A stretch of 25,378 nt of DNA from a virus. The stretch spans positions 1 to 25,378 of the IMG/VR virus record IMGVR_UViG_3300046009_010253. One strand, 5' to 3'. The notes beneath the pieces are model-generated. The model was given only the letters and a program-made list of their open reading frames with translations, was not told the DNA's origin and searched no databases. The translations under genes were made by a program, and so were the position numbers. Below, piece after piece: positions 1,017 to 25,034 of this stretch. Within the stretch, counting starts at the first letter, position 1, and each line of letters opens with the position of its first letter.

Positions 1017-1024
1017 AGTAAATA
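1017..1024 (+). promoter_or_regulatory. Late-type promoter box (AGTAAATA) for the gene starting at 1033
   Basis: The plus strand reads AGTAAATA, then 8 nt, then the ATG at 1033. It lies immediately beside the oppositely directed box at 1009-1016, so the 29-bp gap holds two divergent late-type promoters. No Shine-Dalgarno sequence is present. Confidence 0.55.
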
Positions 1025-1032
1025 GATTTAAT

Positions 1033-1644
1033 ATGACAGAGGGATTCGATTCTTATTTTAAATCTATTTTAGAGGCAATGACACCTTTTACTGGGGATCA
1101 ACGAGTAGATGCAGGAAGAATGGCCGATTTAACTAAAGGAAGTTATACTGAGACTGCATTTTCATCTCTTTTACAGAAAAACAATGTAGTTTTTCGTCTT
1201 GCAAGTTCTAAAGAAGAAGTTGAAGATCATGTGGATTTTTATGTTAAATTGTCTGCTGGCGGTTACAAATCATTCGAAGTTAAGCCTTTGTCTAAAGATG
1301 GGACATTTTATGCAATTGAATTAGTCGGTAGATCGGGAATGCCTGGGGCGATTTATGGAAAAGCCGACTACATGGCATTCCATAATCCTGTAAAACAACT
1401 TTTCTATATTATCGAAAGGGAAAAGATCAAATCTTTGGTAGAGAAAACAGGTGGTGTTTCTGTTGATAGATGGGGTAATTTATCAAATGATAAATTTAGA
1501 ACTGTCGATAATGTAGAAGATGCAGATTTGTTCAGAAGATCATTTTACTTCCGTAGAAACGGAAGAGGCGGCAATGATCCATCTTTATTAACAACCATAT
1601 CTGTTGAGAAAATGAAAGAAATTAAAAGCTTCCTTCTAAAATAA
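1033..1644 (+). CDS. Putative PD-(D/E)XK nuclease-like protein with head-targeting-type leader
   Basis: A 203-residue protein. I chose the ATG at 1033, not an upstream GTG at 892, because the upstream extension overlaps the divergent gene and its promoter, and because the protein then starts with MTEGFDSYFKSILE, the same leader as three other genes here. The body has E40, then HVDFYV with D68, then FEVK with E82 and K84, a spacing expected of a PD-(D/E)XK nuclease core. It is followed by a GKADYMAF/LFYIIEREKI segment typical of such folds. The SILE leader end fits the (I/L)xE cleavage rule of T4 prohead protease. Target and activity are unknown. A packaged, possibly injected nuclease is an inference from leader plus fold. 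Confidence is high for the gene, moderate for the nuclease fold. Confidence 0.75.
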   Translation: MTEGFDSYFKSILEAMTPFTGDQRVDAGRMADLTKGSYTETAFSSLLQKNNVVFRLASSKEEVEDHVDFYVKLSAGGYKSFEVKPLSKDGTFYAIELVGRSGMPGAIYGKADYMAFHNPVKQLFYIIEREKIKSLVEKTGGVSVDRWGNLSNDKFRTVDNVEDADLFRRSFYFRRNGRGGNDPSLLTTISVEKMKEIKSFLLK

Positions 1645-4233: not shown

Positions 4234-4764
4234 TTATATTCCTCTTAGGGAGTATCCGTTCACTTTAGCATTAAAAACCAAAGCCTCCTTTATATTATGT
4301 TGAATATCGTAATCATCGAGTATACCCATGAATTTTTTAAATCCGAAATAGGACTGCATTCGATCAAAATCACATACAAAAGTTCCCGAATGTGACTTGG
4401 CATTCGTTTCCAGAGAAATGATAAAACGATCTTCCGCAGGAGGTAAATATGATTCTTTAGTTCTCCAATTGTGAAAATAAAAGGAAGTTACGGGATTCAC
4501 TCCATAAGTATCAATGGTTTTGAAGAAATATTTGTATTGCAATTTATGGAGTCTCATTTTTTTTCTGAAGTTTTCAGGTAAATCATTATAAGCTTTTTGT
4601 AATTTATCCGCTCTACTGGCATTATAAGAATTGGCCATATGTTTTTGGTAATATTCTAGTTCTTTAAAAAAAGGCTTAAAAATGTCCACATCTTCAACTT
4701 TACGATTATCCGAATCTTTAACGTTAAGCATCGCTCGATATAATTTATCAAAATTAGGTGTCAT
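4234..4764 (-). CDS. Unknown protein with head-targeting-type leader
   Basis: 176 residues. I chose the ATG at 4764 over one 13 codons upstream because a perfect T4 late box, TATAAATA, lies 5 nt before it and the protein then starts MTPNFDKLYRAML, matching the leader of three other genes. The body is basic and aromatic-rich (KMRLHKLQYKYFFKTID; FKKFMGILDDYDI), predicted soluble, with no domain I recognise. Unlike the relatives, no (I/L)xE cleavage site follows the leader. Its stop abuts the stop of the convergent epimerase/reductase gene with no spacer. It lies 39 bp downstream of another leader-bearing gene but has its own late box. A virion-internal role is inferred from leader and promoter. 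Confidence 0.8.
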   Translation of the reverse strand: MTPNFDKLYRAMLNVKDSDNRKVEDVDIFKPFFKELEYYQKHMANSYNASRADKLQKAYNDLPENFRKKMRLHKLQYKYFFKTIDTYGVNPVTSFYFHNWRTKESYLPPAEDRFIISLETNAKSHSGTFVCDFDRMQSYFGFKKFMGILDDYDIQHNIKEALVFNAKVNGYSLRGI

Positions 4765-4803: not shown

Positions 4804-5511
4804 CTACATCTGCCAAGGCTTTTTAGTAGGGCCGGAAAATCCTAATGCTCTAAGTTTAATTTGTCTCTCTAAATCTGCTTGATCCCTTAATTTCTTTTCT
4901 TCCTCTTCTTTTTTCTGGATATCTTGATCTGGGGTCAATTTATTAAAATATTGTCGCATGAAATCAAAGGTGAGCATCGGAGTGTCATGTGGTTTGTTTT
5001 TTATTGCTTGGGCTGTATCAAGATTGTCAGGAGCAGTACTGCCATCGAGATCGCAATCATATTTAAGCTCGTTAGGATCAAGACCTACAGCTTTAGCTGA
5101 TTCAACTGCGGTGTTAAAAACTTCTTTTGACGGAAAATTCCAAAAGCTTAAAACCTTTTGGGGTGGAAAAATTCTATATTTCACATATGACTGATCGTCT
5201 CGACCTACCCAATCTCTCAAATTACCATTTGTTTTTGCGTTTTTCTCTAAAAATGCAAAACGTTCTTCGCTTCTACCGCGATAGAGTCGGGATATAAAAG
5301 CACCATGACCAACGTAATCCGAACCATCATCTCGCATATCGCGAGTTATAGCCTCATCATTGAATAACAAAAAAATATCTTTTTTATGATTTGGTATTAA
5401 TCCAGTTAAATAGCCAGTATAATAATGGACGTTCTTACCATCCAAAGTGAAATTATCGGGAGATTCCTTTAAAAGTATGCTGTTGATATATTGATCAAAT
5501 TTCGGAGTCAT
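4804..5511 (-). CDS. Unknown protein with head-targeting-type leader
   Basis: 235 residues starting MTPKFDQYINSILLKE, the leader family shared with the genes at 1033, 4764 and 12887. LKE at 14-16 fits a (I/L)xE prohead-protease site. The body has strand-rich segments (VHYYTGYLTGLIP; DIFLLFNDEAITRDM), a GHGAFISRLYRGRSEERFAFLE stretch and, at about 195-220, a highly charged helix (KKEEEEKKLRDQADLE) likely to be a short coiled coil. The end is LGFSGPTKKPWQM. I do not recognise a family or catalytic motif. It has its own TGTAAATA box 5 nt before the ATG and is divergent from the Dda-like helicase gene. It is probably a late, virion-associated protein. Confidence 0.8.
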   Translation of the reverse strand: MTPKFDQYINSILLKESPDNFTLDGKNVHYYTGYLTGLIPNHKKDIFLLFNDEAITRDMRDDGSDYVGHGAFISRLYRGRSEERFAFLEKNAKTNGNLRDWVGRDDQSYVKYRIFPPQKVLSFWNFPSKEVFNTAVESAKAVGLDPNELKYDCDLDGSTAPDNLDTAQAIKNKPHDTPMLTFDFMRQYFNKLTPDQDIQKKEEEEKKLRDQADLERQIKLRALGFSGPTKKPWQM

Positions 5512-9922: not shown

Positions 9923-10405
9923 ATGGACGAGGAATCTGCGAAAGAATTATCGAAATTTTTCGAAGCTACTGCCCCATCTTTGGCCGAGTTAGAAACATCG
10001 TATAGAACTTTGTTTAATTTCCGGCCAGCCGATTATGATCAATTTTATAATGATTGTATGCGCCCGATATTAAGACGGACAAAACTCACTGAGATATATG
10101 ACACATATCAAATGCAAGGTCCAGTGGGATTGGCGGCGAATCGTGATCGTAATGGTGAATTCCAATATTTTGCTATTGAAGCAGGAACGATAAAATGCCT
10201 TCGTGAGGATTTCTCGGATATAATAGAACAATATAATCCTAACGATTGTTTTTTGTATTTTTATAAGTTTGTGGATGCCGATGTATGGTGGTCGAAACAT
10301 CTCAGTGTGGTGGGGGTAAATTACGACGAATTGGGTGCAGATATTTTGACAAAAAATATCGGATTCGGGCTTAGAGGTAATTTTGTTAAAAAATATGATA
10401 TATGA
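9923..10405 (+). CDS. Unknown protein
   Basis: 160 residues from the ATG at 9923, four bases after the previous stop; an in-frame TTG at 9887 would overlap the upstream gene. The N-terminus is helical and acidic (MDEESAKELSKFFEATAPS). The middle has RTLFNFRPADYDQFYNDCMRP, then strands (FQYFAIEAGTIKCL; CFLYFYKFVDADVWW). No domain is recognised. Its 3' end overlaps the start of the ATPase gene by 11 bp, or 23 bp if the latter uses a TTG, so the two are probably coupled. Confidence 0.75.
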   Translation: MDEESAKELSKFFEATAPSLAELETSYRTLFNFRPADYDQFYNDCMRPILRRTKLTEIYDTYQMQGPVGLAANRDRNGEFQYFAIEAGTIKCLREDFSDIIEQYNPNDCFLYFYKFVDADVWWSKHLSVVGVNYDELGADILTKNIGFGLRGNFVKKYDI

Positions 10406-11222
10406 CTTTAAATTTAAATCGGGTTTCCCTTTGGCGATGCCTCATTACAATAATAGGCTAATCTCTTTTGGGCCAAGATTATCTGTCCTCTATGGTAGGA
10501 ACGGCATAGGCAAATCGGTAGCCATAAAAACCCTTGCTGCATATTGTGGGATCGAAAAGGGCGGATGGTCACAGATTTCAAATCCTGCCAAGTTAGCATC
10601 TAAGGTAGTAACACATTTCCCATTCGTCTATCGAGCATATACACCATCTAATGTTGATGCAGATGTGACATGGGACGGTGCGCCGACTTTCTATAATGAC
10701 TCAGATATGTTGAATAAAAATGATTTTACATGGTTTTTCGACAATGAGAAGTTATCAGCAGATGGTATAACATCGAGCGGCGAGCAAATGGATATTATGG
10801 CAGAAAAACCTTCTAGTGGTCAATACCGCATCCATAAGATCAACAAAATCATGAAAATCATCCAGACTCCACCTTCTCTCAGTGAAGTCCCCGATGTTGC
10901 AGATAAAGATTCAGCATCGGCAGAGGTAGAGTATATAAAGATTTTGAGAACTAATGCTAAAAAGTTCAACATGCCAGATACGGGTAAGATGACGCTTCTT
11001 TTCGATGAACCGGAAAAAGCCTTAGCACTACCAAAACAGCTTGAACTTTTCGACACATTGAATAAACTCTCAGAACATTTCCAAGTGATAATTGCAACAC
11101 ACTCACCATTCATCCTATATTTCAAAGATGCGAACATAATCGACCTTGAGAATGGATATGCGGATGAATGTCGCGATCTTATCGAAAAGCAGATTAAATC
11201 TTACAGATCAAAAAGAAAATGA
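10395..11222 (+). CDS. ABC-type AAA ATPase (RecF/AAA_21-like)
   Basis: 275 residues from the ATG at 10395. An in-frame TTG at 10383 has a GAGG 5 nt upstream, the only Shine-Dalgarno-like case in the window, and would add four residues. Walker A is GRNGIGKS at 34-41, the ABC signature is PSSGQ at 139-143, Walker B is LLFDEPE with D204 and E205, and the switch histidine is H236 in IIATHSPFI. The insert between Walker A and signature is only about 100 residues and has no long coiled coil, so it is not an SMC or gp46-type protein. No TOPRIM or HNH domain is fused, unlike OLD or Septu-type nucleases. The stop overlaps the SPFH start (ATGA at 11219), suggesting a working pair. Confidence 0.85.
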   Translation: MIYDFKFKSGFPLAMPHYNNRLISFGPRLSVLYGRNGIGKSVAIKTLAAYCGIEKGGWSQISNPAKLASKVVTHFPFVYRAYTPSNVDADVTWDGAPTFYNDSDMLNKNDFTWFFDNEKLSADGITSSGEQMDIMAEKPSSGQYRIHKINKIMKIIQTPPSLSEVPDVADKDSASAEVEYIKILRTNAKKFNMPDTGKMTLLFDEPEKALALPKQLELFDTLNKLSEHFQVIIATHSPFILYFKDANIIDLENGYADECRDLIEKQIKSYRSKRK

Positions 11223-12701: not shown

Positions 12702-12887
12702 TTATTTAATTCTTTTTTTCCGCGTTTTTTGGGTTCGAGTTTTACCTAGATTTCTACGTTGCATTCCACCCAATATCTTAGGTATACCACCTTTATCGTC
12801 GAACCAGCCCGTTCCGACATTAGCCACATCATTAGCGGTCATGTCTTCTAATATTCCTCGAAAAAAATTATCAAAATTATCAGTCAT
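12702..12887 (-). CDS. Small basic protein with head-targeting-type leader
   Basis: 61 residues. MTDNFDNFFRGILED carries the leader, and GILE followed by D fits the (I/L)xE rule of T4 prohead protease. Cleavage there would leave about 47 residues ending in a strongly basic tail (GKTRTQKTRKKRIK), suited to binding DNA inside the head as T4 internal proteins do. The middle is Gly-rich (NVGTGWFDDKGG). It has an AGTAAATA box 7 nt before the ATG. Its stop codon region contains the late box of the next gene, whose ATG is 5 nt further on. The gene is well supported despite its length. Packaging in the head is inferred. Confidence 0.8.
   Translation of the reverse strand: MTDNFDNFFRGILEDMTANDVANVGTGWFDDKGGIPKILGGMQRRNLGKTRTQKTRKKRIK
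12703..12710 (-). promoter_or_regulatory. Late-type promoter box (ATTAAATA) for the GIY-YIG gene
   Basis: The minus strand has two overlapping TAAATA copies (TAAATAAATAG); the first ends 5 nt before the ATG at 12697. It overlaps the stop codon of the upstream small basic gene. Confidence 0.5.
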
Positions 12888-15788: not shown

Positions 15789-16774
15789 AAACTTTAATTG
15801 TCGGCGATTTACATGCAGGTATCAATAGAAATAATTCTATATACCATCGAACTCTATTGAAATATGCCCTATGGATTAAACGTCTATGTGTGGAGCGTGG
15901 TATAAATCATATCATTCAACTGGGGGATGTATTCGACAATAGAAATCAGATATCGGTTGAGACACTGAATATTGTATCGAAATTCTTTGAGATATTGAAA
16001 GATTTCACCATTGACATAACTATAGGAAATCACGATGCACTGTATAATGATCATTCTAAAGTGAATTCTCTTGTCCCTTTTAAGGAACACCCCAATATCA
16101 CCATTCATGAAAATGTCACCAAAAGAGGAGATATGGTTTTCACCGGATGGGGAGTGAAATTGGAGGATATTCCTGAATGTCGCCTTCTATTTGGTCACTA
16201 TGATACGATTGGCTTCGAGCTTCAGAAGGGTAAAGTGTCTTCGCATGGATTTAAAGCATCAGATTTAATGGAAAAAGTGTCTGGGGCAGTCTATACGGGG
16301 CATTATCATCGTCCGCAACTGAGACATTACAATAAAAAACCTCTACATTACGTGGGAAGTGCATATCCTTTAGATTGGAACGATGCCGATGATACAAAGT
16401 TTGTTTATATCTTAGATACTGATACTTTAGCATTGGAAACTATCGAAAATACCGTCAGTCCTCGTTTCAACTACATCAGAAACGAAGAAGACTTGGATAA
16501 AATCGAGGGTAACTTTGTTTCTATAAAATATACCCTTGGCGAAGTGGGTGATAAATGGGTCAGTAAAATTCAAGCATTCAAACCACTGGCAGTAAAGACA
16601 GAACTCCTCAGTGATAATGTTAAACAGATCGAAACAGACATTGCCGACTTTAAGGTCGTCAAGATTGAAGATATCATAGAAGAATGGGTAACTGCATCGC
16701 TAGCTAACATAGACGATGACAGTAAGAAAGAAGTTGCAAAACTTGCAAAGATGAGGTATATTAACAAAAAATGA
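15785..16774 (+). CDS. 47: Recombination nuclease subunit gp47 (SbcD/Mre11-like)
   Basis: 329 residues (T4 gp47 has 339). It is a metallophosphoesterase of the Mre11/SbcD type with all signature motifs: GDLHAG (D8, H10), LGDVFDNR (D48), GNHD (N82, H83, D84), FGHYD (H138) and GHYHRP (H173, H175). With the Rad50-like gp46 it resects double-strand ends and degrades host DNA. Gene 46, normally next to it in T4-type phages, is not found: the next gene, starting at an ATGA overlap, is a glycosyltransferase. Gene 46 is presumably elsewhere in the genome. Adjacency to gene 55 is as in T4-like cyanophages. Confidence 0.93.
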   Translation: MKTLIVGDLHAGINRNNSIYHRTLLKYALWIKRLCVERGINHIIQLGDVFDNRNQISVETLNIVSKFFEILKDFTIDITIGNHDALYNDHSKVNSLVPFKEHPNITIHENVTKRGDMVFTGWGVKLEDIPECRLLFGHYDTIGFELQKGKVSSHGFKASDLMEKVSGAVYTGHYHRPQLRHYNKKPLHYVGSAYPLDWNDADDTKFVYILDTDTLALETIENTVSPRFNYIRNEEDLDKIEGNFVSIKYTLGEVGDKWVSKIQAFKPLAVKTELLSDNVKQIETDIADFKVVKIEDIIEEWVTASLANIDDDSKKEVAKLAKMRYINKK

Positions 16775-17604
16775 ACAAATTCAAAGACGAAACGGCTGTT
16801 ATTGTAATAACATGTAATAGAGAGGGTTTTTTCAAAAACCTTGTATCCTCTATTGATCGATCAGCAGTAGGCAAGATTTATGTAGTAAATGCAGGTGATA
16901 GGTACTCTGAATATCCAGATGATGTCGAGATAATTACTCCGAAACGAAATCCAACTGTTGTGGGAATAGCAAAAAATCTTGGTCTTCGTCGCGCTAAAAA
17001 AGATGGATTCAAATATCTCTTTTTAGTAGAGGACGATGTTGTTATAAAGGATAACAAAGTATGGGAGGAGTATATTCTTACTGCCGCAGATAGTGGCTTA
17101 TGGACTGCCCAATTGAGCTATGGAGCACATGGAGGTATCGGTGGAGGAAATGTTAATACTGATGGGACTCCTAAGAAGAGAATGACCCTCAAATATACCA
17201 ACAAAGAAGTCGATCTATATCTATACTCTTTCCAAGCATTTACCTTGATCCATGCAGATCATTTAACGGATAACGTGTATTTCCGTGAGATATATTCAAA
17301 TGCCGCCGAACATCTCGACCAGCACCAAACTATCTTCCTTAAGGAACATAAAGGTCTTCCTATCATGTGGCACCCTGATATATGCAATTCGTTTTTATAC
17401 ATATCTGATCAGGATTCAGATCATGCATCGAGTGTCATTAGAAAAAGTGCAGACTTTATTAAAAATTTCAACGATGCATGGGGTATCTTCAAAGAGAAAT
17501 TTGGTTATTATCCTCAAGAATCACCTAAATTCAGTGCAGAGAATGTCCATTCCATGCTTGAGGATATTGAGGGTAACTATGCCCAGAAAGAACTTCTTCA
17601 ATAA
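16771..17604 (+). CDS. GT-A glycosyltransferase (family 2-like)
   Basis: 277 residues. The start AVIVITCNREGFFKNLVSSI (9-28) is the nucleotide-binding strand and helix of GT-A enzymes. GIAKNLGLRRAKKDG (65-79) is the helix before the metal site, and FLVEDDVVI gives the DxD-like E87, D88, D89. Later AEHLDQHQTIFLKE and a His-rich stretch may hold the acceptor site and base. Donor and acceptor are unknown. Its ATG overlaps the gene 47 stop, so it is expressed with the recombination genes, an odd place for a sugar enzyme. T4 also has a glucosyltransferase (agt, for modified DNA) near gene 47, so modification of DNA cannot be excluded, though the sequence looks like a glycan enzyme. Confidence 0.8.
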   Translation: MNKFKDETAVIVITCNREGFFKNLVSSIDRSAVGKIYVVNAGDRYSEYPDDVEIITPKRNPTVVGIAKNLGLRRAKKDGFKYLFLVEDDVVIKDNKVWEEYILTAADSGLWTAQLSYGAHGGIGGGNVNTDGTPKKRMTLKYTNKEVDLYLYSFQAFTLIHADHLTDNVYFREIYSNAAEHLDQHQTIFLKEHKGLPIMWHPDICNSFLYISDQDSDHASSVIRKSADFIKNFNDAWGIFKEKFGYYPQESPKFSAENVHSMLEDIEGNYAQKELLQ

Positions 17605-17607
17605 ATA
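17600..17607 (+). promoter_or_regulatory. TAAATA box 5 nt before a small gene
   Basis: AATAAATA, containing the stop codon of the glycosyltransferase gene, is followed by 5 nt (aacat) and the ATG at 17613. The spacing is identical to that of the minus-strand late-type boxes, so the small gene may be transcribed late. Confidence 0.4.
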
Positions 17608-17612
17608 AACAT

Positions 17613-17837
17613 ATGAATACCACAGCTAAAAGAATAGGCGATCTACAATCGGTAGACAATAAAAACAGACGTTTCGGTTCCACCAATAAGTATAATTTCA
17701 TTCGAGTCCAACTCGAAGATGGAAAAGAGGTTCCTCTTCTTTTCACCGATAAAGAAATACTTAATGCTCGAATTCGTGCCCAGAAAAACCCTGAAGATTT
17801 GCCCAAAGTTTCAACCTTTAGGAATCTTTTTGATTGA
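17613..17837 (+). CDS. Small protein of unknown function
   Basis: 74 residues. It is basic at the start (TTAKRIGDLQSVDNKNRR), then YNFIRVQLEDGKEVPLLFTDKEI, strand-turn-strand, then a helix (LNARIRAQKNPEDLP). The pattern resembles small beta-rich phage proteins but no family is assigned. Its last 20 bases overlap the end of the convergent receiver-domain gene. A TAAATA box 5 nt upstream suggests possible late expression in addition to read-through from the glycosyltransferase gene. Confidence 0.7.
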   Translation: MNTTAKRIGDLQSVDNKNRRFGSTNKYNFIRVQLEDGKEVPLLFTDKEILNARIRAQKNPEDLPKVSTFRNLFD

Positions 17838-18246
17838 TATCAGAAACTATCTGTTTCACGTTATCAGGACTTGGTGCAATACTAGCCTTAGGAATATAGC
17901 TTAAAATTTGATCTCTACCGTCTGGATTCCCACTATGAATCCATACATTTTCTCCCATATTTCCTTGTTGAGCTAAGAATTCTGCAACTTGCGACCCCTT
18001 CTCCCCTTGGGCTAGGTCATAATCTAGGCTATAATGGGTAATATCACGATTTTCTCCGATATACAGTATAGCATCGGTCGCATTATCAACAATGTTGACG
18101 TTTTCTAGGATTATACCGTTTTTCTTTAGGTAAATTTTAAACATATTCTGAAGCATCAGGTTATCCTCGACGAATAGAATTTTATAATTCGATGTCGGGA
18201 CTTGTTGCTCTTGCACTAATTGGAAAAACTCTTTAAATGAGATCAT
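17818..18246 (-). CDS. Receiver-domain protein with head-targeting-like N-terminus
   Basis: 142 residues. After MISFKEFFQLVQEQQ, close to the MKTxxEFI-x-E start of T4 internal proteins, residues 22-130 form a response-regulator receiver fold: YKILFVEDN (E27, D28), SLDYDLAQG with the presumed phosphoacceptor D75, WIHSGNPDGRDQI (S105) and the conserved lysine K120 in PKASIAP. LDxDL plus HSxNP is typical of the receiver subgroup linked to cyclic phosphate processing (cREC), not of classic two-component regulators. No DNA-binding or output domain follows. The TGTAAATA box 5 nt before the ATG indicates late expression. A receiver that travels in the head could act on host signalling or nucleotides after injection. 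That is inference. Confidence 0.75.
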   Translation of the reverse strand: MISFKEFFQLVQEQQVPTSNYKILFVEDNLMLQNMFKIYLKKNGIILENVNIVDNATDAILYIGENRDITHYSLDYDLAQGEKGSQVAEFLAQQGNMGENVWIHSGNPDGRDQILSYIPKASIAPSPDNVKQIVSDINQKDS

Positions 18247-18251
18247 GGATA

Positions 18252-18259
18252 TATTTACA
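18252..18259 (-). promoter_or_regulatory. Late-type promoter box (TGTAAATA)
   Basis: The minus strand reads TGTAAATA, 5 nt (tatcc), then the ATG at 18246. It is divergent from and adjacent to the early promoter at 18261-18289. Confidence 0.6.
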
Positions 18260-18260
18260 C

Positions 18261-18289
18261 TTGATCAGGCATGTGTATTGATGTATAAT
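18261..18289 (+). promoter_or_regulatory. Early-type promoter TTGATC-17-TATAAT of the sugar cassette
   Basis: TTGATC (18261-18266), exactly 17 bp, TATAAT (18284-18289), 7 nt, ATG at 18297. It is the only clear promoter for the ten-gene run to 25034. The predicted RNA starts at about the ATG. Confidence 0.75.
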
Positions 18290-18296
18290 ATTGTAT

Positions 18297-19088
18297 ATGC
18301 GTATAGGTATAGGGATAACGACATGGAAAAGAGCCGATGATTTCAAAGAGCTACTTTCACAGATAAAGGACTTAGATGATCGTTTTTTCTTTGCATTCGT
18401 TTTCGACGGACCTTTTACCGTCAACAATGAATACGACTTCAAATACATTGCTGATTCTCTCGGTTCTAGATATAAAAATTACAGATATGGGGTGAATGTG
18501 GGAGTTTCGAAGGTCAAAAACAAGTGTATCGATCTTCTAAATGAATTCGATGTGGACTTTATATTCCTTCTCGATGATGATATGATGGTTTTGGACACCA
18601 AAGTTTTTGACCTTTACATCGAGGCACATAAACGTAGTGGCTTGGAACACCTTATGTTCTCCCATGTGGATAAGAACACCACCACATACACACTAATGGT
18701 GGCCGAAGATTTCGGAATTACTACACATAGCCTAGCACAAGGAGCATTCATGTTTTTCACGAAGGATCATCTTCGGAAAATAGGTAAATTCGACGAGGGG
18801 TTCAAGAATGCATTTGAGCATATAGATATGACATATCGATCATATACCGCACAGGAATTACCTTTTTGGTTCTTTCTAGATGTTTTAGGTAGCGATAAAT
18901 GTCTGAAGGAAAGGGGTAATCCCTCAACGATTACGAATAAAGAACCCTATACTCTTAATATACAGAAATCATCCATTCGATGGATGGAGAAGTATGGTAA
19001 AAATGTCGCGGATATACCTAGATTACCTGTCACGATACTAATAGATAGACTAAAGAAAATTAAAAATGAAAATAGTTCTAGGAGTTAA
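18297..19088 (+). CDS. GT-A glycosyltransferase, family 2
   Basis: 263 residues from the ATG at 18297; an in-frame TTG two codons upstream overlaps the promoter region. MRIGIGITTWKRADDFKELL is the nucleotide-binding start of GT2 enzymes, GVNVGVSKVKNKCIDL the following helix, and IFLLDDDMMV holds the metal-binding DDD (93-95). AFEHIDMTYR is the GT2 acceptor-side ED/HxD-type motif. It is first in a ten-gene glycan/methyl cassette and probably adds a sugar to a phage or host surface glycan. The sugar is unknown. Its end overlaps the next gene by 23 bp. Confidence 0.85.
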   Translation: MRIGIGITTWKRADDFKELLSQIKDLDDRFFFAFVFDGPFTVNNEYDFKYIADSLGSRYKNYRYGVNVGVSKVKNKCIDLLNEFDVDFIFLLDDDMMVLDTKVFDLYIEAHKRSGLEHLMFSHVDKNTTTYTLMVAEDFGITTHSLAQGAFMFFTKDHLRKIGKFDEGFKNAFEHIDMTYRSYTAQELPFWFFLDVLGSDKCLKERGNPSTITNKEPYTLNIQKSSIRWMEKYGKNVADIPRLPVTILIDRLKKIKNENSSRS

Positions 19089-19848
19089 CTTATTTGGCGA
19101 CGAACATCGTCATAGAATTTCAAGAGAAAGTTATAAAAGGCTTTCTGATAAGTTTGGTATCTCGCTGTTAAATCTACAGTTCGAAGGATTACCCCCTACG
19201 TTTGAAGATGAACGATTTGAAACCAAACATATCCTAAAGATTTCATCAAAAGATTTAATTCCTGAGTCTTTTAAGACCCTTCCGACTATGAAGGACTGTT
19301 TCGATGCATTAGCATCCACGGAATGTGATTATTTTATCTTCACCAATGATGATATTATCATATCACCGACATACATTGAACTGTTTCTTGCCACGCTTAA
19401 GGATAGTTATCCATCGAGTAGATTGTCCATCAAAGAATTGGCGACCTTAGAAGATGAAATTACTGCAATAGACCATTATCAGGTTGCAGGATTTGATGCA
19501 TTTATAATTAAAAAGGAATGGTGGTTGAAGGTAAGGGATTATTTCCCTAATTATATTCTCGGTAAACCATGCTGGGATGTCCATTATGCAATGCTTTGCA
19601 TGAGACATGGCGACAGTATGTTATGTAATAAATGGCCCCCTCCTACCTTCCACATTGCACACGATTTAGTGTCTTTCGATGATTGTCCAGAAAAGAAATA
19701 TAATGAAAGAATATTTTGGGAAGACCATATTGCCGATTCTAAGATATGGAATTTATACCTACATAAGGTTCTCTTAAAAAGACCAACACAATACATATCT
19801 GTCTTCGGGAATGAAGAAGAATTGGAGAAAATTTATTTTAAACTATGA
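19066..19848 (+). CDS. GT-A-like glycosyltransferase
   Basis: 260 residues. The start MKIVLGVNLFGDEHRHRI is followed by the metal-site stretch CDYFIFTNDDIII with NDD at 94-96, as in GT-A enzymes. VAGFDAFIIKKEWWLKVRDYFPNYILGKPCWD resembles the acceptor-side region of such enzymes. The C-terminal third is rich in Trp, Tyr and His. Donor and acceptor cannot be told. The gene overlaps both neighbours (23 bp upstream, ATGA downstream at 19845), so it is part of the cassette. Confidence 0.7.
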   Translation: MKIVLGVNLFGDEHRHRISRESYKRLSDKFGISLLNLQFEGLPPTFEDERFETKHILKISSKDLIPESFKTLPTMKDCFDALASTECDYFIFTNDDIIISPTYIELFLATLKDSYPSSRLSIKELATLEDEITAIDHYQVAGFDAFIIKKEWWLKVRDYFPNYILGKPCWDVHYAMLCMRHGDSMLCNKWPPPTFHIAHDLVSFDDCPEKKYNERIFWEDHIADSKIWNLYLHKVLLKRPTQYISVFGNEEELEKIYFKL

Positions 19849-20597
19849 GAAAATTGGGAATAATTCAACCTGGGAAAATAGGAGACATCATCATATGTCT
19901 TCCCATCGCTAAATGGTATTATGATAGAGGCTATGAAGTTATTTGGCCAGTTAATAGGGATATTATCGATAATTTTTATCAAGAAGGAAAACATAATTAT
20001 GTTCCTTATGTGAAATTTTTCCCTATTGAATACGATTGTCATGTTGCACGTAGGTTATGCGCAGCCCACGACTGTAATACCATCATCGATTTATCGTTTA
20101 CTATTCCAGGGGCACATGTAGGTAATACCTATTTCTATCTGAACCAATTTGATTACACCTTCGACGAACTGAAATACCATATTGCTAATGTTCCGACTTA
20201 CGAAAAGTGGAACCTGCAAGTGAAAAGAAACATGGAAAAGGAAAACCAATTAGTAGATTTCCTATGCAACTATTCGGAAGATGAATATGATGGGTTTATT
20301 CTTGTCCAAGAATCATCTTCTGATCAAAAGAGGGAGGTGGATGTTTGTAATCCTAGACTACATAGGATAAATATTAAACCCGTATCGGGATCGGTTTTTG
20401 ATTGGATATCTACTATCGAAAGGGCATCAAAAATATGCGTAATCGAGAGTAGTATATCTAACATGATCGATCAATTAAAAATCGATGTTCCTGATATGAC
20501 ACTGATGATGAAACATGGTTATTATGGTCCTAAGCTACATCATGGCGATTTATTACGGGGAGAGCCTTTATTACGAGGAAAATGGAAAAAAGTATGA
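19845..20597 (+). CDS. GT-B-type glycosyltransferase (family 9-like)
   Basis: 250 residues. IIQPGKIGDIIICLPIAKWYYDRG (7-30), with GKIGD at 10-14, is the N-terminal loop and helix of family 9 (heptosyltransferase-like) enzymes. YEVIWPVNRDIIDNF continues the Rossmann half. The C-terminal half has GFILVQESSSDQKREV and a RASKICVIESSISNMIDQL segment, where family 9 enzymes bind the nucleotide sugar. It is shorter than bacterial heptosyltransferases (about 320-350), so the fold may be trimmed. The start ATG overlaps the previous stop (ATGA). Confidence 0.65.
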   Translation: MRKLGIIQPGKIGDIIICLPIAKWYYDRGYEVIWPVNRDIIDNFYQEGKHNYVPYVKFFPIEYDCHVARRLCAAHDCNTIIDLSFTIPGAHVGNTYFYLNQFDYTFDELKYHIANVPTYEKWNLQVKRNMEKENQLVDFLCNYSEDEYDGFILVQESSSDQKREVDVCNPRLHRINIKPVSGSVFDWISTIERASKICVIESSISNMIDQLKIDVPDMTLMMKHGYYGPKLHHGDLLRGEPLLRGKWKKV

Positions 20598-21262
20598 AGT
20601 ATCAAATATATAGCGGATTTTGCAAAAATGTAGACCCAAAAAAATATGCAAACCTATCAGCAGATGAGTGGTTTGAAATATGGTATAAAAACACCATTAG
20701 TATAAGCCATTCTGATATTTTTATATTTGGGCCGGACGTTCCGAATTTAACGAATAAAAATGGAATATATTCCATAGGAGAATATACTAATTTAGGTCAT
20801 GGTGGTGATTATTGGAATGGTTCTAGGGAAGGACGTTGGTGTGGATGGGTGACTGGCGTTGCATTAGGAATGATCCATGCATATGCGTGTAATAGTGATT
20901 TTATATACAAAGAACAAGATTGTTTATGGTTCGGCGATACCATAATTTCACAGATGTACCAAGATTTAGGAGATACTGATATTGTGATGGGAACATGTAA
21001 ACTTATGGGGACTGCCAACTCTTTATTTTTAGTTCCAAGAAATAAAATATTGGACGTAATTGCCTCATTAATCCCGACAGATGCAAAGACTCTTCTACCG
21101 GAAGATAGATTCAAACGTATTCCTAATTCGTCGCGTTTAAGTTTTGGATATGATCGAGATCGACCTTTTGATATTTCCAAGTTACCTTTTTATGTTCAAC
21201 AAGTGACTGATACTGAACTTGAGTCCTTAAAGTCTATTGACAACAGTACATCGAAAATTTAA
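20594..21262 (+). CDS. Putative glycosyltransferase-like protein
   Basis: 222 residues from the ATG at 20594, which forms an ATGA with the upstream stop; an ATG at 20582 would add four residues. SHSDIFIFGPDVPNL, GWVTGVALGMIHAYACNSDFIYKEQDCLWFGD (the EQDC is a DxD-like site) and ANSLFLVPRNKILDVI have the strand-helix-metal order of a GT-A fold, but the match is loose. No transmembrane segment. Assigned mainly from the fold pattern and its position within the sugar cassette. It could be another sugar-nucleotide enzyme. Confidence 0.5.
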   Translation: MKYQIYSGFCKNVDPKKYANLSADEWFEIWYKNTISISHSDIFIFGPDVPNLTNKNGIYSIGEYTNLGHGGDYWNGSREGRWCGWVTGVALGMIHAYACNSDFIYKEQDCLWFGDTIISQMYQDLGDTDIVMGTCKLMGTANSLFLVPRNKILDVIASLIPTDAKTLLPEDRFKRIPNSSRLSFGYDRDRPFDISKLPFYVQQVTDTELESLKSIDNSTSKI

Positions 21263-21265
21263 ATA
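21260..21265 (+). promoter_or_regulatory. TAAATA box 7 nt before the methyltransferase start
   Basis: TAAATA overlapping the stop codon of the upstream gene ends 7 nt before the ATG at 21273. It could be a late-type promoter inside the cassette, or only an A-rich start-codon context. Confidence 0.25.
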
Positions 21266-21272
21266 ATACCAT

Positions 21273-21785
21273 ATGAGAAAAATACAATTTGGCTGTGGGG
21301 GAAACATTTTACCAGGATGGGAAAACTATGATTACGATGTAGATATTACAAAAACTCTCCCATTTAGCGACGATTCGGTAGATGCTATTTTAACAGAACA
21401 CGTAGTTGAACATGTCACTATCCATCAAGCATGGGATTTCTTTGAAGAATGCATGAGAATATTAAAACGAGGAGGATTTCTTCGAGTTGCCGTGCCAAGT
21501 GTCAGCCGTATTCACGCATTAGCAGATCAAGATTATTTTAATTTTATTAAAGAACAAGGATGGGGTGAGCCGAATATTAAAGGAGCCGTCAAATCGATAA
21601 TATTCAACCATGAACATAAGACCATATGGGAACAAGCGAGTTTAAACGCTATTATGGATTCAATGGGATTTCAAGTATTGTCCGATGCAAATATTATTAT
21701 GGCCGGAACACTCAACCATGGACGTGTTATTGGACAGAAGATGAACGATATCGACACAATTGTTGTTGATTGTATGAAACCTTAA
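21273..21785 (+). CDS. SAM-dependent methyltransferase (class I)
   Basis: 170 residues. KIQFGCGGNILPGWENYDYDVDI (3-25) has the SAM-binding loop FGCGG (6-10) and the acidic end of strand 2. LPFSDDSVDAILTEHVVEHV (29-48) is the motif IV/post-I region typical of the methyltransferase 11/31 families. FFEECMRILKRGGFLRVAVPS is the motif V strand and helix. It probably O- or N-methylates a sugar or a small target made by its neighbours. It starts 10 bp after the preceding stop. The fold is clear; the substrate is unknown. Confidence 0.85.
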   Translation: MRKIQFGCGGNILPGWENYDYDVDITKTLPFSDDSVDAILTEHVVEHVTIHQAWDFFEECMRILKRGGFLRVAVPSVSRIHALADQDYFNFIKEQGWGEPNIKGAVKSIIFNHEHKTIWEQASLNAIMDSMGFQVLSDANIIMAGTLNHGRVIGQKMNDIDTIVVDCMKP

Positions 21786-21787
21786 CA

Positions 21788-22561
21788 ATGAGACGAATAG
21801 CCTTTACGATAGTTTTGAATGGGATGCCCTTCATAAAAAGGCAAGCAACAATATTACCTAGGGTATTTGACGAGTGGCATATTATAGAGGGGGCAACATT
21901 GCCTCTTCTCGATACTGCATGGTGTCAGAATATCAACAATGAGTTTTATTCCGAAGACAAACTATCCGTCGATGGAACTACTGAATTTATAGATAGTATA
22001 GTAGATGGTGAGAAGATATTCATCCATCGAAAAGGAGATTTCTTTAATGGGAAAACCGAAATGTGTAATATGATACACGGCAGAATGCATGATTGTATTC
22101 TCATGCAGTTTGACGTTGATGAGATTTGGAATGTAGATACTCTAACCTCAGTATTATCCTTTGCCGAAGAAAATGAAGGGTTTGATGGTATGTTATTTCG
22201 ATGTAATTATTATGTTGGCCCAAATTTAATTACATATGGCGATAATTCATACGGAAATAATTCCGGCGAATGGTGCCGTTTATGGAAAATAAAAGATAAA
22301 ACAGAATGGGTTTCACATGAACCCCCTAGAATTCGAGGATTGACAGATTTCCTATCCAGAAAATATACTGACGAGAAAGGGTGGAATTTCAACCATTATG
22401 CATACATTCTAGAAGACCAAGTGAGGTTTAAAGAGAATTTTTATGGCTACACCGATGCGGTTCAATCGTGGAAAAAACTTCAACTACATAACACATACCC
22501 AGTCAGATTAGGTGATTTTTTACCTTGGGTTAGAGATAATGCATTGGCAATTAAAATATGA
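21788..22561 (+). CDS. Glycosyltransferase-like protein with DVDE motif
   Basis: 257 residues from the ATG at 21788, two bases after the previous stop; an in-frame TTG at 21770 would overlap it. RRIAFTIVLNGMPFIKRQA is a GT-A start (residues 2-20), DCILMQFDVDEIWNVD gives the metal-binding DVDE (109-112), and SGEWCRLWKIKD and HEPPRIRG lie on the acceptor side. It resembles family 2/17-type enzymes that act on glycan termini. Its stop overlaps the next start (ATGA at 22558). Confidence 0.7.
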   Translation: MRRIAFTIVLNGMPFIKRQATILPRVFDEWHIIEGATLPLLDTAWCQNINNEFYSEDKLSVDGTTEFIDSIVDGEKIFIHRKGDFFNGKTEMCNMIHGRMHDCILMQFDVDEIWNVDTLTSVLSFAEENEGFDGMLFRCNYYVGPNLITYGDNSYGNNSGEWCRLWKIKDKTEWVSHEPPRIRGLTDFLSRKYTDEKGWNFNHYAYILEDQVRFKENFYGYTDAVQSWKKLQLHNTYPVRLGDFLPWVRDNALAIKI

Positions 22562-23193
22562 ACGCTGAAATACATTTAAACGAACCCTTTGGGTATGAAA
22601 TTTTCCAAACAGTTATAAGATATGAACTTCTGAATAATCTGGAAATAGGTTCATGGGACGGAGAAGGTTCGACCTCATGTTTTGTTTCTGCAATGGAACA
22701 TCTATCAGGAAGTAAGAGTCTTCAATGTATAGAGATCATAGAAGAAAAATACCAAGTATTAGTAGACCGATATAAAGATAAAGATTTTGTTAAATGTTTT
22801 CTGGGTTCGAGTATATCTTCATCGTCTTTAATCGATAATGATTTTGATGCAATATGGAATTCTCCATTTAACAGAATACCTCAAAATCTTTATCCTAAAG
22901 AGTTGGTCAAATCGTGGTTCGATAGAGATGTCATGACCATACGTAAATCCGCCTATTTCATCGACTCTAGTTCAGATAAAGTTTACGATTCTGTTCTTAT
23001 AGACGGCGGCGAATTTACTGGATATTCAGAATTTATTTTATTGAAAGATCGGACTCGTGTTTTCTTTTTAGATGACGTTCATAATGCATTTAAATGTAAC
23101 CAAGTTTATCACACACTCTCCGATGATCCAAAATGGTCGTTGATTTGTGATAGACCCGATGTTAGAAACGGGTTCGCTATTTTTATTAAATAA
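22558..23193 (+). CDS. Class I methyltransferase-fold protein
   Basis: 211 residues. NLEIGSWDGEGSTSCF (27-42) is a SAM-binding loop like that of methyltransferase family 24. The following strand LQCIEIIEEKY carries the acidic residue, and YDSVLIDGGEFTGYSEFILL and RVFFLDDVHNAFKC correspond to motifs IV and V with an aspartate pair and histidine often seen in this family. The middle insert (FNRIPQNLYPKELVKSWF) is not recognised. It is the first of three methyltransferase-fold genes in a row. Confidence 0.7.
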   Translation: MNAEIHLNEPFGYEIFQTVIRYELLNNLEIGSWDGEGSTSCFVSAMEHLSGSKSLQCIEIIEEKYQVLVDRYKDKDFVKCFLGSSISSSSLIDNDFDAIWNSPFNRIPQNLYPKELVKSWFDRDVMTIRKSAYFIDSSSDKVYDSVLIDGGEFTGYSEFILLKDRTRVFFLDDVHNAFKCNQVYHTLSDDPKWSLICDRPDVRNGFAIFIK

Positions 23194-23194
23194 G

Positions 23195-23758
23195 ATGATG
23201 GAACATTTTTACAGTAATATAGGGGAAAACTGGTTCACATACCCTAACTTGTATAGAAATGCGGTGAAGGAGTTTGATAATTGTGATTTTCTTGAGGTCG
23301 GATCGTGGAAAGGACGTAGCGTATCATTTTTAGGAGTGGAAGTTAAAAATCAAAGCAAAAATATACACATCCACTGTGTTGACACTTGGGCAGGTAGTAC
23401 CGATCATCAAGATTTTGAACAATTAAACCCTGATGTTATATACGCTGAATTTCTTAAAAATACAGAACCCCTTAAAGATATAATCACCCCTGTTAGAATG
23501 ACATCGTTTCAAGCTTCTCATAATTATAATGATGAGTTTTTCGATTTTATATTCATTGATGCTTCCCATAAATATGATGACGTTCTAATCGATCTGGATA
23601 TATGGTTTCCGAAATTAAAAAAACAAGGACTATTTGCAGGGCATGATTATGGAAACGGATGGGGCGGGGTAGAGCAAGCCGTAATAGATTGGACTAAAAA
23701 AAATTCTATAGATTACAGTGTGGATAAAACAGAGTATTGTTGGTATTTGAGAAAATGA
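23195..23758 (+). CDS. Class I methyltransferase (family 24-like)
   Basis: 187 residues from the first of two adjacent ATGs (23195 or 23198). FLEVGSWKGRSVSFLG (32-47) is the SAM loop, HIHCVDTWAG (58-67) the strand 2 acidic residue, FDFIFIDASHKYDDVLIDLDIW the motif IV region, and GLFAGHDYGNGWGGV the motif V turn with the conserved GHD. This order is that of methyltransferase family 24. The TAAATA beginning at 23187 ends exactly 5 nt before the second ATG, which may mark the real start. Its stop overlaps the next start. Confidence 0.8.
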   Translation: MMEHFYSNIGENWFTYPNLYRNAVKEFDNCDFLEVGSWKGRSVSFLGVEVKNQSKNIHIHCVDTWAGSTDHQDFEQLNPDVIYAEFLKNTEPLKDIITPVRMTSFQASHNYNDEFFDFIFIDASHKYDDVLIDLDIWFPKLKKQGLFAGHDYGNGWGGVEQAVIDWTKKNSIDYSVDKTEYCWYLRK

Positions 23759-24333
23759 TTATTGTTCAGATAGGCACGAATGATGGTAACGACCATGTTT
23801 TTGATTTTGTTAAAAACGTGGATTGTTATCGCATTATCCTCATCGATGCTAATCCGCGATGCACAGAAAAGGTTTCCGACCGATATGTCGGAATCCCAAA
23901 TGTTGAATTTTATAATATGGCTATTGTTCCATATGTAGTTACTGAACCTACCACTGTCAAATTGCTCGTCCCTACTGCGGACGAGACGAGTGCTCATGCA
24001 TCGTTACAAGAAGAGCATATGAGTAAACATGGCCATACATCATTAGATTCTATCGAAGTTAATGCTCTCGATTTTCATGGAATGTTGGGAACCCTTAAAA
24101 TAGATAAAATTGATAGGCTATATATTGATGTTGAGGGTTTGGATATCGATATCATTAATAGTATAGATTTTAAAAATATTTGCATTCCCTATGTGATGTT
24201 TGAATATATACATTCGGATGGAACATTATCTTGGGGAGGGGTAAAATTAGACGATTGTCTCCGTCGATTGGCTTCATTTGGATACGATATAGAAAAGGTC
24301 GCATATAACATAATAGCAACTAAATCAATATGA
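23755..24333 (+). CDS. FkbM-type methyltransferase
   Basis: 192 residues from the ATG at 23755, which shares ATGA with the preceding stop; an in-frame start at 23737 would overlap more. QIGTNDGND (5-13) is the SAM loop, IILIDANPRC (27-36) the strand 2 acidic residue, and LYIDVEGLDIDIINSID (122-138) is the FkbM signature with D125, E127 and G128. FkbM enzymes methylate hydroxyls of sugars and other natural products. It is likely to modify a glycan made by the adjoining glycosyltransferases. Confidence 0.85.
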   Translation: MIIVQIGTNDGNDHVFDFVKNVDCYRIILIDANPRCTEKVSDRYVGIPNVEFYNMAIVPYVVTEPTTVKLLVPTADETSAHASLQEEHMSKHGHTSLDSIEVNALDFHGMLGTLKIDKIDRLYIDVEGLDIDIINSIDFKNICIPYVMFEYIHSDGTLSWGGVKLDDCLRRLASFGYDIEKVAYNIIATKSI

Positions 24334-25034
24334 AAACCGCAATATGCCTTTCGGGAGAACTGAGAAGTATAAGGAAAACTTTTCCCCGAATTAAAAAAGA
24401 TATCCTCAATCAATTGGAGTCATACGATGTGTTCTACCATACTTGGACGGATGATCCTGATCTTAGGGATTTAAATATACTAATTCAGGACGGTAATCTG
24501 AAGGACATATTCATAGAACCACGAATAACGTTCGACGAGAAGAATTATAATCTACGTAAAAGATCGGAAGTGTTCATTCAAGGGTTTTTACGCCAACTCT
24601 ATTGCCTTAAGAAATGTAACATGCTTAAAAAACAATATGAGGCTGAGCATGATTTCATCTATGATGCGGTGCTAAGAGTCAGACCCGACATTTATCCTAT
24701 TCTCGACTCGAAATTGGAAGAAATTGATGTTAGTAAACTGCAAAATGCGGTATATATTCCGACACATGACCATTGGCACGGCTACAATGATCGTTTCTAT
24801 TATTCTAGTTCCCCGAATATGGATATTATCTCTTCGAGGTTTGATAAAGTGGATGATTATTTTAACAAAGGTGGCATAATCCATTACGAAACATTCCTTA
24901 AGTATATTATCGATACGAATCTATTGAAAGTTTTAGATTCCGATCTGAAATTCGTTCTACTACGAAATAATGGAGAAAAGAACGGGGAATTGGTCGAACC
25001 TGATAGGACTTTTTTGGATAAATTTGTAAAATAG
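24330..25034 (+). CDS. Glycosyltransferase-like protein of a phage/bacterial surface-glycan family
   Basis: 234 residues. MKTAICLSGELRSIRKTFPR followed by SYDVFYHTWTDD is a start seen in a family of glycan-locus proteins. The conserved RVRPDIYP and a His-rich stretch (IPTHDHWHGYNDRFYY) come later. The fold looks like GT-A with RPD in place of DxD, but catalytic activity is not certain. It is the last gene of the cassette and starts with an ATGA overlap. No terminator is visible in the 39 bp before the next gene. Confidence 0.6.
   Translation: MKTAICLSGELRSIRKTFPRIKKDILNQLESYDVFYHTWTDDPDLRDLNILIQDGNLKDIFIEPRITFDEKNYNLRKRSEVFIQGFLRQLYCLKKCNMLKKQYEAEHDFIYDAVLRVRPDIYPILDSKLEEIDVSKLQNAVYIPTHDHWHGYNDRFYYSSSPNMDIISSRFDKVDDYFNKGGIIHYETFLKYIIDTNLLKVLDSDLKFVLLRNNGEKNGELVEPDRTFLDKFVK

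Follow-up and report, generated by a model that had tools for sequence, protein, structure and literature searches.

The window, which here means the whole stretch of 25,378 nt analysed from the virus record IMGVR_UViG_3300046009_010253, bears on its plus strand an open reading frame that runs from ATG 1033 to the stop at 1644 and encodes a protein of 203 aa. An alternative in-frame GTG start lies upstream at 892, but ATG 1033 is the better start because the near-identity to a sibling protein (97% identical; contig IMGVR_UViG_3300032320_002277, L001/G001) begins there and because the element AGTAAATA is placed just before it. The features of the gene, together with four other genes of the window whose products have related N-termini, are collected in Table 1. 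Elsewhere in the window, positions 16771-25034 of the plus strand hold a run of many glycosyltransferase-like and methyltransferase-like genes (read by eye), unusually sugar-rich for a phage. The ATPase gene at 10383-11222 is matched by L088 (9798-11654, minus strand), where the reading by eye shows the gene interrupted by an insert resembling an intein (CLAEGTLVATPNG...HN); the window copy has no such insert.

Table 1. Features of the nuclease gene and of leader-bearing genes in the window (the arrow marks a predicted cleavage site)
Feature	Position	Strand	Remark
AGTAAATA, T4-late-promoter-like element	1017..1024	+	8 nt before ATG 1033
Leader, residues 1-14 (MTEGFDSYFKSILE), predicted prohead-targeting propeptide	1033..1074	+	predicted cut after E14 (I-L-E↓A)
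Predicted mature PD-(D/E)XK nuclease, residues 15-203	1075..1641	+	21.3 kDa, pI 9.1
E40, acidic residue of helix 1, equivalent to Hjc E12	1150..1152	+	27/27 relatives
D68 of the HxD motif, equivalent to Hjc D42	1234..1236	+	27/27 relatives
E82-V-K84, (D/E)xK motif, equivalent to Hjc E55/K57	1276..1284	+	D/E 27/27, K 28/28
GKADYMAF signature, family motif	1357..1380	+	alignment; GKADY doubled as search peptide
Unrelated protein, leader-like start MTPNFDKLYRAML, no clear L/I-x-E	4234..4764	-	exact TATAAATA upstream
Unrelated protein, same leader MTPKFDQYINSILLKE↓S	4804..5511	-	leader 19/20 identical to sibling
61-aa protein, leader MTDNFDNFFRGILE↓D and basic tail	12702..12887	-	leader match
Leader-like start MISFKEFFQLVQE and cyclic-phosphate-processing receiver domain (PF20274)	17818..18246	-	Pfam

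The original prediction had read a PD-(D/E)XK pattern from E40, D68 and E82-V-K84, and translation of the 203-aa frame places these residues exactly at the positions named. The AlphaFold2 model of the window protein has a core pLDDT of about 90 (blocks of residues 41-140 at 79-93) and a low-confidence leader region. Searched with Foldseek and VIA-align, the model found the proposed fold and no other at the top of the list, the best match among solved structures being the homing endonuclease I-Ssp6803I (2ost; Z 10.4 over 121 residues, 2.8 A), followed by Hjc (2wcw; Z 9.6) and, further down the ranking, HinP1I, NhoI, SPARDA nuclease domains, RecU and PvuII. A leaderless relative, L048, was modelled separately (pLDDT 91.6, pTM 0.87) and returned the same list of structures, with Z scores of 9.9 (I-Ssp6803I), 9.7 and 9.4, which upholds the fold claim from a second protein, although the best Foldseek E-value is only 0.003. 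In the AlphaFold2 model of the window protein, E40 lies in the helix of residues 24-49, D68 opens a strand, and E82 and K84 are in the strand of residues 78-84. Profile comparison with Hjc by hhalign gave a probability of 4.6, not significant alone, in an alignment that sets E40/D68/E82/K84 onto Hjc E12/D42/E55/K57, the catalytic residues of Hjc. The Pfam models of Hjc and RecU found no match at E<=1 among 28 family members. On these models a restriction-endonuclease-like alpha/beta core with an intact catalytic set is well supported as a prediction, and strand positions, spacing and the Hjc register suggest that E40, D68, E82 and K84 cluster in space.

No family match to the 203-aa protein was obtained in PHROGs, in NCBIfam or, by tblastn, among 50,697 phage records, where Synechococcus phage S-SM1 matched weakly in two records (E 6), a result taken as chance. 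Pfam returned only RE_MjaI, sub-threshold at E 0.18, and the PDB sequence search only two unrelated weak matches (E 0.17 and 0.28); a profile search of PDB sequences gave no match. The first IMG/VR relatives were found with a DNA pattern combining the (D/E)xK strand and the GKADY motif, and the wide IMG/VR scan by alignment used the peptide [YQ]GKADY[IM] alone. The latter yielded 45 loci and a variant peptide brought several more, about 50 in total; these relatives are phage proteins, mostly of 149-190 aa, with 21-30% identity to the window protein (the sibling excepted). In the alignment of 28 relatives, E40, H66, D68 and D/E82 are each kept in 27/27, a count of the members that cover the position among the 28 aligned rows, while K84, E96 and R175 are kept in 28/28. 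The GKADY motif is likewise invariant in the 28 rows but served as the search key; conservation of the catalytic residues is unselected, because the wide scan was keyed only on the [YQ]GKADY[IM] peptide. PHROG and Pfam models gave no convincing score for any member, and the family is uncatalogued, being absent from PHROGs and having nothing above a Pfam cut-off. It also looks phage-restricted within the genomes scanned, since 84,980 bacterial and archaeal species genomes gave zero confirmed relatives.

What sets the window protein and its sibling apart from the family is the N-terminus, with 39 residues before the conserved glutamate against 0-32 in the relatives (all but one at most 21). The leader ends in an L/I-x-E site (I12-L13-E14↓A15, SILE↓A), and two more L/I-x-E triplets occur inside the nuclease body at residues 126-128 and 135-137. 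Apart from the sibling, none of the relatives checked has the leader MTEGFDSYFKSILE↓A; it recurs instead on proteins of this phage and its cousins that are unrelated to the nuclease. In the protein encoded at 4804..5511, the first 20 residues are identical to its sibling at 19/20 positions and the remainder at 105/214, a pattern that fits constraint on the leader and rapid evolution of the cargo. On sibling contigs, leaders were found on a DUF6321 protein (MTEQFDAYVNSILE) and a 2H phosphoesterase (MNFNTLYRIIKE), and further ones read MKFDDLYLTLLKE, MTPAFDEYVSSLLLCE and MKYSQFFTKLLLE.

Some leader-bearing products deserve mention in their own right. The 61-aa protein consists of nearly all leader plus a basic tail (QRRNLGKTRTQKTRKKRIK) and resembles a DNA-associated internal head protein. 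The receiver-domain protein may likewise be injected and act on cyclic-nucleotide signalling. The leader-bearing 2H phosphoesterase L059 (IMGVR_UViG_3300032320_002277, 23639-24175, plus strand; MNFNTLYRIIKEN...) scores above the cut-off for Pfam 2_5_RNA_ligase2 and sub-threshold for Acb1 (anti-CBASS), which makes it a candidate for a virion-delivered anti-CBASS enzyme.

Sharing of the leader among unrelated proteins is above chance. A regular expression for the leader matches 9/171 genes of this phage species, and as it was written from the very examples that it counts, the informative figures are its controls: an expectation of 0.145 after residue shuffling (at most 2 in 200 shuffles) and 0/522 matches at internal Met positions. 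The pattern is not fully specific, since it also matches an HD-like protein in L064, L067 and L087; this protein, a 938-aa protein and short chance ORFs were judged to be non-leaders, and a baseplate-hub-like protein matching the pattern was likewise judged to have no leader.

The leader genes also have an upstream element in common. Every distinct leader gene of the phage species (12/12) has TAAATA in the 20 nt before it, versus 27/144 other genes (Fisher p 1.4e-8) and 0.8% of random positions. Its strongest form upstream of leader genes is exact TATAAATA, the T4 late-promoter consensus. In cousins, the same element precedes the portal, neck, gp21, tail, gp22-like and gp23-like genes. As a match in sequence, the element predicts rather than shows late expression of the leader genes.

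A DNA pattern representing the leader was also run across IMG/VR; in the contigs that it returned, genuine leaders are borne by DUF6321 basic proteins, among others. Nine contigs were then tested for two head genes, a portal of the T4 type and a protease of the gp21 type. Both were present in 5/9, all five of them leader-bearing cousins, in a set that held no random contigs. Portal and gp21 were not found in the other four: both contigs from the species of the window, a 19-kb fragment, and L064, whose pattern match is an unconvincing leader. The window's species is represented by fragments only (25, 42 and 58 kb), and neither portal nor gp21 was found in the 42- and 58-kb contigs. In cousins G010, G011 and G013, gp21 and a core-like protein, small and acidic, lie beside a leader protein, which is DUF5661 in the one cousin scanned. 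A gp22-like gene then follows in G011 and G013, and a gp23-like gene in G011 (gp22 and gp23 assigned by eye). G013 also carries a MNFSSFYKLFFEN-type leader on an ADP-ribosyltransferase domain (PF18760). In T4-like cousins (L137 on the G013 contig, 42339, minus strand, and contigs G009, G010 and G011), leaders of the MKFxxYYxLLxE type are borne by many proteins, among them an ART-PolyVal ADP-ribosyltransferase and others that contain HExxH-like motifs. The head-targeting-type leader of the original prediction is supported by its sharing among unrelated proteins, its L/I-x-E site, the late-promoter-like element, and gp21 and a T4 portal in cousins.

The closest known scheme is that of phage T4, whose prohead protease gp21 cleaves after L/I-x-E (PMC9026906; papers cited beside this rule are PMC9391042 and PMC12373910). 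Like T4 IPI, IPII, IPIII and Alt, the window protein has a short N-terminal leader of aromatic/hydrophobic pattern ending in L/I-x-E↓. The likeness to the T4 internal proteins extends to a mature protein that is basic and about 20 kDa in size and to a late-type promoter element, both predicted here from sequence, to a leader common to otherwise unrelated proteins, and to the T4-type portal and gp21 in cousins. T4 ipII and ipIII, read directly, both begin MKTYQEFIAE↓A, so that the leader here is longer (14 versus 10 residues), reads FDxYhxxIL instead of KTYQEFIA, and has a wider gap between the aromatic pair and the cleavage site. T4 Alt modifies RNA polymerase, and the G013 leader on an ADP-ribosyltransferase domain provides a parallel to it. 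The cargo is the main difference, being a PD-(D/E)XK nuclease here and restriction inhibitors or an ADP-ribosyltransferase in T4.

Fold, catalytic set, shared leader, cleavage consensus and late-promoter-like element were all obtained by computation, and the gene probably encodes the precursor of a virion-internal DNase which is expressed late, targeted to the prohead, clipped, packaged and ejected, and which cuts DNA. From these features we infer packaging, cleavage after E14, ejection and nuclease activity as follows. The nuclease gene would be transcribed late, its promoter being of the T4 late type, and the precursor would be docked into the prohead core by its first 14 residues. Once a gp21-type prohead protease had clipped off this leader behind E14, a basic PD-(D/E)XK nuclease of 21 kDa would stay in the head alongside the packed genome. 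Upon infection, the nuclease would be ejected with the DNA and would cut DNA in the new cell ahead of phage gene expression. The target is the least certain part of this explanation; host or plasmid DNA is the first choice, with branched DNA or incoming ends as the other candidates.

The packed phage genome might be spared by selectivity for branched structures, a property of the Hjc-like enzymes that share the fold, by a shortage of metal that the enzyme could use inside the head, or by DNA modification. An engineered precedent is the fusion of IPIII with staphylococcal nuclease in T4, of which up to 200 copies are packaged and which is activated inside the head by Ca2+, digesting the phage DNA only upon Ca2+ addition (PMC9026906). 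This dependence on Ca2+ weakens the argument that a nuclease inside the head would inevitably degrade the genome packed with it. The fusion resembles the arrangement proposed here in that a capsid targeting sequence carries a nuclease into a T4-type head, and differs in being engineered and of another fold, whereas the arrangement here appears natural. The idea of 2-aminoadenine DNA (PurZ) as self-protection was rejected, as the sibling protein in question matches PurA better and falls far below the PurZ cut-off. The gene concerned, L058 (14972-16105, plus strand), is a divergent adenylosuccinate-synthetase-like gene that scores higher for PurA than for PurZ and below all cut-offs.

Among the other explanations, a head-carried structure-selective nuclease, that is, a Holliday-junction or branch resolvase which debranches DNA around packaging or processes and recombines incoming phage ends and leaves host DNA alone, is improbable, though the likeliest of them. 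Hjc and RecU are among the fold neighbours, the archaeal Hjc and bacterial RecU proteins are of similar size, and the E, D and (D/E)xK residues are in register with those of Hjc. Leaderless relatives often lie in replication, recombination or terminase neighbourhoods, where polymerase, SSB, RuvC-like, RusA-like, exonuclease-like and terminase genes were labelled by eye, and such an enzyme would leave linear packed DNA intact. Conversely, no sequence membership in the Hjc or RecU families was found, the relation being non-significant by hhalign and without a Pfam match, and the GKADYxAF signature and E96 are extra features of the present family. Targeting to the prohead core would moreover put the protein inside before DNA entry, which is odd for debranching concatemers. 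A homing endonuclease of the I-Ssp6803I type, itself of PD-(D/E)XK fold, is very improbable even though I-Ssp6803I is the top single fold match for the window protein and for its leaderless relative alike. Rfam models, introns included, gave no match in the window or over the initial 39 kb of the sibling contig, the gene is free-standing with its own late-promoter-like element, and a head leader, present here and not in I-Ssp6803I, serves no purpose in homing.

The remaining explanations each give up one half of the preferred reading. If the cutting were given up, the product would be a packaged protein with a DNA-binding, restriction-decoy or anti-defence role, comparable with T4 Ip1-3 acting against GmrSD enzymes, all three of which inhibit restriction enzymes (PMC12373910). 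The basic mature protein (pI 9.1) would suit such a role, which is nevertheless unlikely in view of the full catalytic set kept in a family conserved for exactly that set. If the packaging were given up, the product would be a cytoplasmic nuclease of phage DNA metabolism, with N-terminal 14 residues that are no head signal. This is quite unlikely: the other family members checked have no leader and many lie in DNA-metabolism modules, but leader sharing with unrelated proteins far exceeds the shuffled and internal controls, and the leader ends in the gp21 consensus, accompanies a late-promoter-like element and adjoins gp21 in cousins.

The preferred reading, a DNase carried in the virion, builds on what is already known, namely the head-targeting scheme of T4 and the predicted injected ParB-type DNases of the polyvalent proteins (PMC5512222). 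The latter, which combine ParB-type DNase and ART domains, embody the same idea of phage enzymes injected with DNA; they are large, multidomain proteins, in contrast to the single-domain PD-(D/E)XK protein with a T4-type leader described here. In the open-access literature, no natural virion-targeted PD-(D/E)XK nuclease was found, only the engineered IPIII fusion and the predicted ParB DNases. As a tentative and rather doubtful extension, this T4-like lineage may load its heads, via one modular leader, with entry-acting enzymes that form an injected strike and counter-defence kit. The kit would comprise the PD-(D/E)XK DNase against resident DNA, the 2H phosphoesterase with weak Acb1 similarity, the cyclic-phosphate-processing receiver and the ADP-ribosyltransferase.

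The nuclease family constitutes a new annotation target, lying outside PHROGs and below the Pfam cut-off. With the leader rule, candidate injected effectors of uncultured T4-like phages can be listed straight from sequence. If a nuclease is indeed a natural cargo of the head, the testable question is raised of how the packed genome escapes, and DNA attack or processing would precede any phage gene expression.
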